Below, piece after piece: positions 17,378-19,068 of a stretch of 34,965 nucleotides of DNA; within the stretch, counting starts at the first letter, position 1, and each line of letters opens with the position of its first letter. The DNA comes from Olleya sp. (GTDB lineage Bacteria; Bacteroidota; Bacteroidia; Flavobacteriales; Flavobacteriaceae). The translations under genes were made by a program, and so were the position numbers. The DNA is taken from the NCBI GenBank assembly GCA_023300575.1, contig JALZUT010000109.1:1-34965 (forward strand). The letters are read 5' to 3'. The notes under the pieces are model-generated. The model searched no databases. It was not told the DNA's origin and worked only from the letters and a program-made list of their open reading frames with translations.

Positions 17378-18361
17378 TTGTCTCACGAATATTACATAAA
17401 ACGCTGTTTACAAATCGCTAAAAATGGATTAGGCACGACACGACCAAATCCTATGGTTGGTAGTGTTATTGTGTATGATAACATAATTATTGGCGAGGGT
17501 TTTACAAGTCCTTATGGTAGTAGTCATGCAGAGGTTAATGCTATAAATGCAGTTGTTGATAAATCACTTTTAAAAAACGCAACTATTTACGTCACTTTAG
17601 AGCCTTGTAGTCACTTTGGTAAAACACCTCCTTGTAGCGATTTAATTTTAAAACATCAAATACCAAACGTCGTTATTGGCTGTGTTGACGACAATCCAGA
17701 AGTAGCAGGGAAAGGCATTAAAAAACTTAAAGAAGCTGGTTGCAATGTTACAGTTGGTGTTTTAGAAACAGACTGTAAAGCACACCACAAACGTTTTTTT
17801 ACATTTCATAATAAAAAACGGTCTTATATTATATTAAAATGGGCAAAAACTAGTGATGGTTTTATTGCGCCAAAAAGTAAAGACAACCAAAAACCGGTTT
17901 GGATAACCAACCAATATTCTAGACAGTTAGTTCATAAATGGCGTGCAGAAGAACAAGCCATTTTGGTTGGCACAAACACAGTGTTACAAGACAACCCTAG
18001 TTTAACAGTTAGAGATTGGACTGGAGATAACCCGATTAGAGTGGTTTTAGATAAAGATAAAAAACTAGATGCTAGTTTTACCGTTTTTAATAATGAAGCA
18101 AAAACAATCTCTTTAAAAAAACACACAGCTAAAGACCTATGTAACCTTTTACATGAAGCAAACATCAATTCTATAATTATTGAAGGTGGCGCAAAAACAT
18201 TGCAGCTTTTTATAGATGAAGGACTTTGGGATGAGGCACGCATATTTACTGGATCTGTCACTTTTAATAAAGGTGTTATAGCACCAACTTTTACAGGTTG
18301 TTTAATTTTAGAAAAAAAAATAAAAGAGGATACTTTAACCATTTTTACTAACAATAATTAA
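17378..18361 (+). CDS. ribD: Riboflavin biosynthesis deaminase/reductase RibD
   Basis: Bifunctional: deaminates the GTP-derived pyrimidine, then reduces its ribosyl side chain. The 327 residues cover both domains. The deaminase zinc site is HAE (50-52) plus Cys77 and Cys86 in PCSHFGKTPPC. The reductase domain starts near 150 (IILKWAKTSDGFIAP) and includes RAEEQAILVGTNTVLQDNP and IIIEGGAKTLQLF. The initiator is TTG (17378), one base after the upstream stop; MSHEYYIKRCLQIAKNGLG matches normal RibD N-termini, so this start is right. A small structured repeat follows the stop. Confidence 0.96.
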   Translation: MSHEYYIKRCLQIAKNGLGTTRPNPMVGSVIVYDNIIIGEGFTSPYGSSHAEVNAINAVVDKSLLKNATIYVTLEPCSHFGKTPPCSDLILKHQIPNVVIGCVDDNPEVAGKGIKKLKEAGCNVTVGVLETDCKAHHKRFFTFHNKKRSYIILKWAKTSDGFIAPKSKDNQKPVWITNQYSRQLVHKWRAEEQAILVGTNTVLQDNPSLTVRDWTGDNPIRVVLDKDKKLDASFTVFNNEAKTISLKKHTAKDLCNLLHEANINSIIIEGGAKTLQLFIDEGLWDEARIFTGSVTFNKGVIAPTFTGCLILEKKIKEDTLTIFTNNN

Positions 18362-18367
18362 AAAGTA

Positions 18368-18443
18368 TTGTCATTACTGCGAAAGCAGAAATACAGAATA
18401 GTCCTATTATTAAAGTAGATTACTACTTTACTAGTAATGACAA
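18368..18443. mobile_element. MITE/REP-like structured element with 11-bp terminal inverted repeats
   Basis: Perfect terminal repeats TTGTCATTACT (18368-18378) and AGTAATGACAA (18433-18443) enclose two internal hairpins: CTGC-GAAA-GCAG (18378-18389, a GNRA-type loop) and AAAGTAG-ATTA-CTACTTT (18412-18429). The fold is cloverleaf-like. GTCATTnCTGCGAAnGCAG strings are common dispersed repeats in Bacteroidota, often linked to REP-associated transposases. No transposase is present here. It fills the ribD-HAD gap and ends 13 bases before the HAD start. Confidence 0.75.
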
Positions 18444-18456
18444 AAAATTACAAACT

Positions 18457-19068
18457 ATGATAAAAACTCTAATCTTTGATTTTGGAGATGTATTTATAAA
18501 TTTAGACAAAGAAGGCGCAATACAAAATGCGCTTGAACTATTTAAGATAGAATCACTTCCTGAAGAACTTGTTGCATATAATACGTTGTATGAACAAGGT
18601 TTGATTAGCACAGAAGAATTTATTGATTTTTATAGGATGAATTTTCCTGAAATATCAGAGTTAGACTTAGTATACACCTGGAATTCTATAATTAAACACT
18701 TCCCTAAAAAAAGGTTAGAATTTATACAGCAATTAGCAAAAGACAAAAAATACCAACTTATTTTATTGAGCAATACTAATGAGCTTCATATCAATCACAT
18801 TAAAGAGTGTGTTAATTTTTATGAGGATTTTAAAGCCTGTTTTGACAAGTTCTATTTGTCGCATGAGATAATGTTACGTAAACCAAATGCAGATATTTTT
18901 CAGTTTGTTTTAAATGAAAACAAGTTAGAAGCAAAACAATGTCTGTTTATTGATGACACTACAGAAAACACAGAAGCTGCATCAAAACTAGGTATGCATG
19001 TTTGGAATAATAAACCTTTAACAGAAGATGTTATTGATTTATTTACTATTAAAAAAGACTTGTTTTAA
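18457..19068 (+). CDS. HAD-superfamily hydrolase (YihX-like)
   Basis: 203 residues. HAD motif I is IFDFGDV with nucleophile Asp8, motif II is ILLSNTNE, motif III is the Lys in MLRKPNADIF, and motif IV is FIDDTTENTEAA. The helical cap between motifs I and II (residues about 18-95) is of the type seen in YihX-like sugar-phosphate phosphatases. The substrate is unknown. The last base of its TAA is the first of the next ATG, so it is coupled to the EamA transporter gene. Confidence 0.9.
   Translation: MIKTLIFDFGDVFINLDKEGAIQNALELFKIESLPEELVAYNTLYEQGLISTEEFIDFYRMNFPEISELDLVYTWNSIIKHFPKKRLEFIQQLAKDKKYQLILLSNTNELHINHIKECVNFYEDFKACFDKFYLSHEIMLRKPNADIFQFVLNENKLEAKQCLFIDDTTENTEAASKLGMHVWNNKPLTEDVIDLFTIKKDLF

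Follow-up and report, generated by a model that had tools for sequence, protein, structure and literature searches.

The 76-base element between ribD and a HAD-family hydrolase gene in Olleya sp. is an inverted pair of one repeat, and palindromes related to this repeat bracket genes for a small GIY-YIG nuclease, each nuclease clade having palindromes of its own, across phyla. The element occupies positions 18,368 to 18,443 of the window, the 34,965-nucleotide (nt) stretch of contig JALZUT010000109.1 that was analysed as a whole. We consider it probable that the element is a decayed dimer of CGTC-type REPs, palindromes that in their full-length arrangement bracket a GIY-YIG nuclease, which, we infer, moves REP-ended DNA. 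The small nuclease is thereby put forward as a candidate for the missing partner of the CGTC REPs, a repeat class without a known mobiliser. If correct, this proposal would describe a REP system in which a GIY-YIG nuclease takes the place of the HUH transposase, and it would account for repeats found in several phyla, those of Neisseria dRS3 among them.

A REP dimer at the ribD–HAD junction

The junction between the two genes is 95 nt long and holds the REP dimer. The features are as follows.

17378..18361, plus strand: ribD (riboflavin deaminase/reductase), the upstream gene; named from an earlier, sequence-only reading and the list of open reading frames (ORFs)
18368..18443, no strand: whole head-to-head REP dimer with its tags outward, between the ribD stop and the HAD start; 76 bases
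18369..18392, plus strand: left REP unit, 24 nt, with one A-A mismatch within the stem; TGTC tag at 18369-18372, stem ATTACTGC at 18373-18380, loop GAAA at 18381-18384 and stem GCAGAAAT at 18385-18392
18393..18418, no strand: spacer separating the two REP units, 26 nt
18419..18442, minus strand: right REP unit, inverted; minus-strand GTCATTACTAGTAAAGTAGTAAT plus the outer T of the tag
18457..19068, plus strand: HAD-family hydrolase, the downstream gene; from the ORF list, with the family name from the sequence-only reading

The sequence-only reading had described 11-base perfect terminal inverted repeats (TTGTCATTACT and AGTAATGACAA), a GNRA-capped 4-bp hairpin (CTGC-GAAA-GCAG), a 7-bp hairpin (AAAGTAG-ATTA-CTACTTT) and a distance of 13 bases to the HAD start (ATG at 18457), all of which are present. 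Each 11-base terminal repeat opens a full palindromic unit of 24 nt, and the 7-bp hairpin is an alternative structure available to the spacer and the right unit. On the minus strand, the right unit comprises TGTC, ATTACTAG, TAAA and GTAGTAAT, with the inverted tag at 18439-18442. An inverted repeat of 25 nt with 80% complementarity (I1) links the two units, each of which retains seven of its eight stem pairs. The left unit matches the search pattern GTCATTNCTGCGNANGCAGNAAT with no mismatches, and the right unit is recovered with three mismatches when the loop is left free in the pattern. The family consensus, derived from other copies, reads TGTC-ATTCCTGC-GNAN-GCAGGAAT followed by CCA or CTA; relative to it, two pairs of the right stem are altered on both sides (C-G to A-T and G-C to A-T), and the tail of the left unit is ACA, where many family copies have CCA or CTA/CTC.

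The RNA folding energy of the 76 bases is better than that of 200 of 200 dinucleotide shuffles on either strand (z −4.52 and −4.54), and folding as DNA is likewise better than all 200 (z −5.05). The cloverleaf proposed from the sequence alone holds for minus-strand RNA and for single-stranded DNA; it is one among several near-equal folds and differs from the plus-strand RNA minimum. Its shape arises because two REPs are inverted, not from an individually designed RNA, and the anatomy of an inverted repeat pair is more informative than the cloverleaf. An Rfam search of the window gave no matches, no terminator-like site or T-run overlaps 18368-18443, and no target-site duplication is evident by eye beside the element, relatives being too diverged to fix the exact empty site.

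The repeat belongs to a multicopy family. Pattern searches, from which all copy counts were taken, found 37 copies within three mismatches in the own genome (2.31 Mb in 253 contigs, 76% complete) versus none for the reversed control, and near-exact copies occur in 118 of 400 Flavobacteriaceae genomes, again with none for the control. Three congeners hold 28, 21 and 13 copies, and others hold few. Most own-genome copies are single units, and several are paired head-to-head like the window dimer. Closely spaced copies in G234, a high-copy genome, nearly always pair up head-to-head, mostly 48-55 nt start-to-start; the window pair, at 49 nt, has the same orientation and spacing. Only 3 of 30 REP copies lie inside an ORF. 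Stem pairs also covary: pair 7-20, which was free in the search pattern, is a standard pair in 56 of 74 distinct units versus 48.6 in shuffles (p 0.003), and pair 9-18 in 71 of 74 versus 68.2 (p 0.001), with shuffles that make no correction for kinship among the units. Copies and paired substitutions, which the sequence-only reading had proposed to look for, are thus both found, and the element is neither single-copy nor unconserved.

A special preference for operon junctions was rejected. Although 21 of the 22 classifiable own-genome copies lie between co-oriented genes, this is no excess, because neighbouring ORFs at these loci share their orientation in 44 of 49 pairs anyway. At three own-genome copies (L012, L015 and L021), inverted REP ends (GCAGGAATGACA) lie very near start codons and contain an ATG that reads in frame into the gene, a possible alternative start or mis-annotation.

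CGTC-tagged REPs (family CGTC-1) were defined by Di Nocera et al. in 2013 and include Neisseria dRS3 and Rickettsia RPE-6 (PMC3733652). Their tag is often TGTC, their 8-bp stems begin with A-T, loops are of 4 nt in family 1 and tails are short, unpaired and CCA-like; they are intergenic, occur mainly as head-to-head dimers 20-100 bp apart, span five phyla and have been reported from Bacteroidetes, including Gramella forsetii (PMC3733652). The published survey linked no dedicated transposase to them and left their means of spread open (PMC3733652). Judged by its sequence, the window element fits this superfamily, as a TGTC variant in the usual head-to-head dimer form, and taken alone it is an ordinary REP dimer. 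The earlier reading had offered two possibilities, a structured RNA and a nonautonomous element that is mobilised in trans; the latter is supported in kind, the element being a CGTC-type REP dimer with relatives that bracket a nuclease gene, and not a cloverleaf RNA designed as such.

GIY-YIG nuclease genes between palindromes

Nine stretches were fetched solely for their closely spaced REPs, and four of them carry a stand-alone gene for a GIY-YIG nuclease of about 100 amino acids between or beside the REPs. A second start from REPs again led to loci matching GIY-YIG genes. The nuclease domain matches Pfam PF01541 with 59-65 bits, and the best NCBIfam match is a group I intron endonuclease family, below its cut-off. 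The catalytic Y, Y, R, E and N residues are kept in 75-76 of 76 aligned nucleases, 72 of which are without stops.

The nuclease was sought in 43 genomes, and flanks were fetched for 110 matches. A match to the window-type REP (class A) lies within 700 bp of every one of the 11 genes with 66% or more identity to the query, one of which is the query's own locus, itself chosen by its REPs. Eight of the 11 are bracketed by the palindrome, either at both ends within 30 bp or at one end, and in most the margins measure 13-24 bp upstream of the gene and 6-29 bp downstream of it, the tags pointing outward. Two (L266 and L292) are bracketed by a sister-class palindrome, with the class-A match farther out. 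Genes for nucleases more distant from the query lie between different palindromes (ATTTCCGC, CGTCATTGCGAG, CCTGAAC..TTCAGG and GTCATTTCGA).

Inverted-repeat flanks with a score of at least 17 accompany 35 of 62 related nuclease genes versus 3 of 648 unrelated control ORFs (p 8e-39), and 14 of 26 after loci with shared flanks are merged (p 1.6e-19); for the 27 genes below this score, inverted flanks are weak or not measurable. Distant GIY-YIG genes failed as a negative control, and unrelated ORFs were used because about 20 of 45 distant GIY-YIG genes have inverted flanks of their own. Palindrome classes change in step with the nuclease tree (15 changes versus 51.5 when shuffled), a congruence inflated by several loci that are orthologous across genomes. 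A single genome (G068) contains seven nuclease genes with six palindrome classes. A close nuclease is present in 9 of 20 high-REP genomes versus none of 20 zero-REP genomes (p 0.001). The own genome (G000), at 76% completeness, has no close nuclease and only distant matches, a broken one at 34% and another at 32%; two 99%-complete congeners (G008 and G002) also have no close nuclease.

On contig C124 of the own genome (L288, 18578-18808), two direct repeats of about 80 nt that contain a tRNA 3′ end (GGGGTCAGGGGTTCGAATCCCTTGTCGCCCAC...) enclose a broken, distant GIY-YIG ORF, an arrangement suggesting that a further type of GIY-YIG element targets tRNA ends. At L257 (G374:C4:326000-329000), a 107-bp unit that includes the REP is repeated in tandem at least 15 times, always in one orientation, and a GIY-YIG gene lies within the array.

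The arrangement recurs in Proteobacteria. A tblastn search of plasmid records, some of which are mislabelled chromosomes, found 34 records, mostly in taxa with published CGTC REPs: Sinorhizobium, Azospirillum lipoferum, Novosphingobium aromaticivorans, Sphingobium and Neisseria. Alpha-, beta- and gammaproteobacterial loci share the REP–nuclease–REP plan, and at least 10 of the 15 plasmid-collection loci that were read lie between palindromes in inverted orientation, for which CGTCATCCTCGGGCTTGACCCGAGGATCCA with its complement is typical; three of the 15 (L373, L379 and L384) show no bracketing. L384, from Sphingomonas paeninsulae, is a GIY-YIG remnant between the usually adjacent rnc and era genes, without visible palindromes. 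A literature search, with most subscription journals and preprints outside its reach, found no link between GIY-YIG proteins and REPs.

Origin of the dimer and competing explanations

These observations can be joined in one mechanism. The REP family would belong to a wider palindrome set, the full-length form of which is REP–nuclease–REP with tags outward. Most likely, REP-ended DNA spreads through cuts by the nuclease, which would recognise the palindrome belonging to it; DNA of this sort that includes the gene would be the autonomous form, and the gene-less dimer, as in the window, would be a small non-autonomous form moved in trans. A head-to-head CGTC-type dimer may have inserted long ago at the ribD–HAD junction, in an ancestor of the Lacinutrix-like lineage, and may since have been kept or eroded by descent, the partner nuclease seemingly having been lost from the own genome. 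The window copy would now be a relic, because it contains no gene, its genome has no close nuclease and its units are eroded; its two stem-loops, lying between co-oriented genes, are probably transcribed and would alter the expression of those genes modestly at most. Given the REPs around nuclease genes in other genomes, the best interpretation of the element is that of a decayed relative of REP–nuclease–REP without the gene. The analysis shows what the repeat is, how many copies it has, its dimer form and covariation, the varying occupancy of the junction, and the association of nucleases with clade-specific palindromes across phyla; that the nuclease causes the movement, and that the window copy moved in this way, we infer. 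We consider about as likely as not the broader proposition, namely that CGTC REPs are the ends of tiny mobile elements encoding a palindrome-specific, single-domain GIY-YIG nuclease and that gene-less dimers are miniature derivatives moved in trans. The clade-specific nuclease–palindrome pairs make the mobiliser question for CGTC REPs directly testable by in vitro cleavage.

The strongest competitor, which we nevertheless regard as unlikely, is that the REPs are the target: homing-type GIY-YIG parasites would have cut their way into palindromes that spread by other means, and the window dimer would never have been colonised. GIY-YIG domains are known in homing endonucleases, as the NCBIfam match recalls, below its cut-off though it is, and insertion sequences that target REPs are reportedly on record. 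Genome G370, with 37 near-exact REPs and no GIY-YIG match whatever, shows high copy number in a nuclease-free genome. Empty sites bear on the matter in both directions. One Sphingobium site occurs in three versions (without REP, with one CGTC palindrome, and as REP–gene–REP): strains without the gene have the single palindrome exactly at the REP–gene–REP position of others, as expected of a target, whereas one strain has neither REP nor gene. In Azospirillum lipoferum, a REP dimer–gene–REP dimer arrangement splits sufB and sufC, whereas the sufB–sufC site of the three closest relatives has no gene and no REP, so that the REPs and the gene arrived together or in quick succession. The REP-free Azospirillum sites favour a nuclease that moves REP-ended DNA, and the single-palindrome Sphingobium state fits either a mobiliser or homing. 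The class-A genes, moreover, sit inside a head-to-head pair at the short margins given above, like a unit with its ends, which also speaks against homing into pre-existing palindromes.

A local regulatory RNA or attenuator of the ribD–HAD transcript, selected for its cloverleaf at this site, is improbable. The strong folding, the position between co-oriented genes 13 nt before a start codon and the paired stem changes in one relative would suit it; dozens of unrelated sites with the same repeat and the lack of a terminator-like T-run do not. The state of the junction in L077 and in other close relatives, given next, also weighs against it.

The HAD gene has orthologues in 80 Flavobacteriaceae records, and in 42 of 79 relatives aligned by the gene pair, ribD and HAD overlap or are at most 9 nt apart, the rest having insertions. 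A REP of this class is found at the junction in six relatives (L066, L071, L073, L074, L077 and L086) and not in others. The orthologous left unit of L086 has a perfect 8-bp stem (ATTGCTAC/GTAGCAAT), two pairs of which differ from the consensus on both sides; the orthologous junction of L077, by contrast, folds no better than shuffles (z −0.74), and in the close relatives L067, L068 and L079 the structure is lost or replaced by unrelated repeats. Those three and L100 carry unrelated repeat families (GATCAGAATTGTATCGAGAA; GCGCAGTCGA hairpins), which marks the junction as a recurrent insertion point. In the tree from which junction occupancy was read, the row for the window groups with the L086-group rows with moderate support (86/81), so that a single old insertion followed by decay seems plausible; more than one event is also possible. 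Origin counts are not pressed, because the long branch of one misassigned row (L070) set the drawn root.

A conventional REP/RAYT system, in which a Y1 (IS200-like) tyrosine transposase moved the REPs and has since been lost here, is very improbable. GTAG-type REPs work with RAYTs (PMC3733652), and some relatives, several congeners among them, have Y1 transposases; against this, at 60 Y1-transposase loci no REP of the window family (GTCATTCCTGCG palindromes) lies within about 1.5 kb, no Y1 match exists in the own genome or in the top-copy genomes G313, G234, G204 and G370, the tag is TGTC and not of the GTAG type, and the published CGTC survey likewise lists no transposase (PMC3733652). The absence of REPs from Y1 flanks largely refutes a Y1/RAYT partner. 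A chance palindrome, although many weak hairpins are expected at AT-rich junctions, has a negligible probability and is refuted by the shuffles, none of 200 folding as well, and by 37 genomic copies versus none for the control.

Relation to known systems

The REP-linked nuclease shares its catalytic domain with the homing GIY-YIG endonucleases of group I introns and with free-standing ones, and selfish spread by DNA cutting is plausible for it. Unlike them, it is not located in an intron, has about 100 amino acids comprising the catalytic domain only, and is flanked by clade-specific palindromes. The UPF0213 GIY-YIG proteins (PDB 1zg2 and 1ywl) are similarly single-domain proteins of about 100 amino acids and match weakly (E 7e-4 and 4e-3), but their sequence identity to the REP-linked nuclease is low. 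We know of no reported REP association for UPF0213 proteins.

MITEs resemble the window element in being short, gene-less, ended by terminal inverted repeats and related to a gene-bearing form; they differ in that the REP unit here is often single, no target-site duplication is evident by eye and the partner is not a known transposase. The GTAG REPs and REPINs of Pseudomonas and E. coli are also short palindromes in inverted pairs, non-autonomous and presumed to owe their movement to a linked enzyme acting in trans, whereas the window tag is TGTC and their partner, a Y1 HUH transposase, is absent or unlinked here. Closest are the CGTC-1 REPs, with which the window element shares the TGTC tag, the 8-bp stem with A-T first, the 4-nt loop, the head-to-head dimer form, the intergenic position and the multicopy state, although the window copy is eroded (a left-stem mismatch, a changed right stem and the tail ACA). 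Whereas CGTC-1 REPs were published without a transposase, related palindromes are found here around GIY-YIG nuclease genes.
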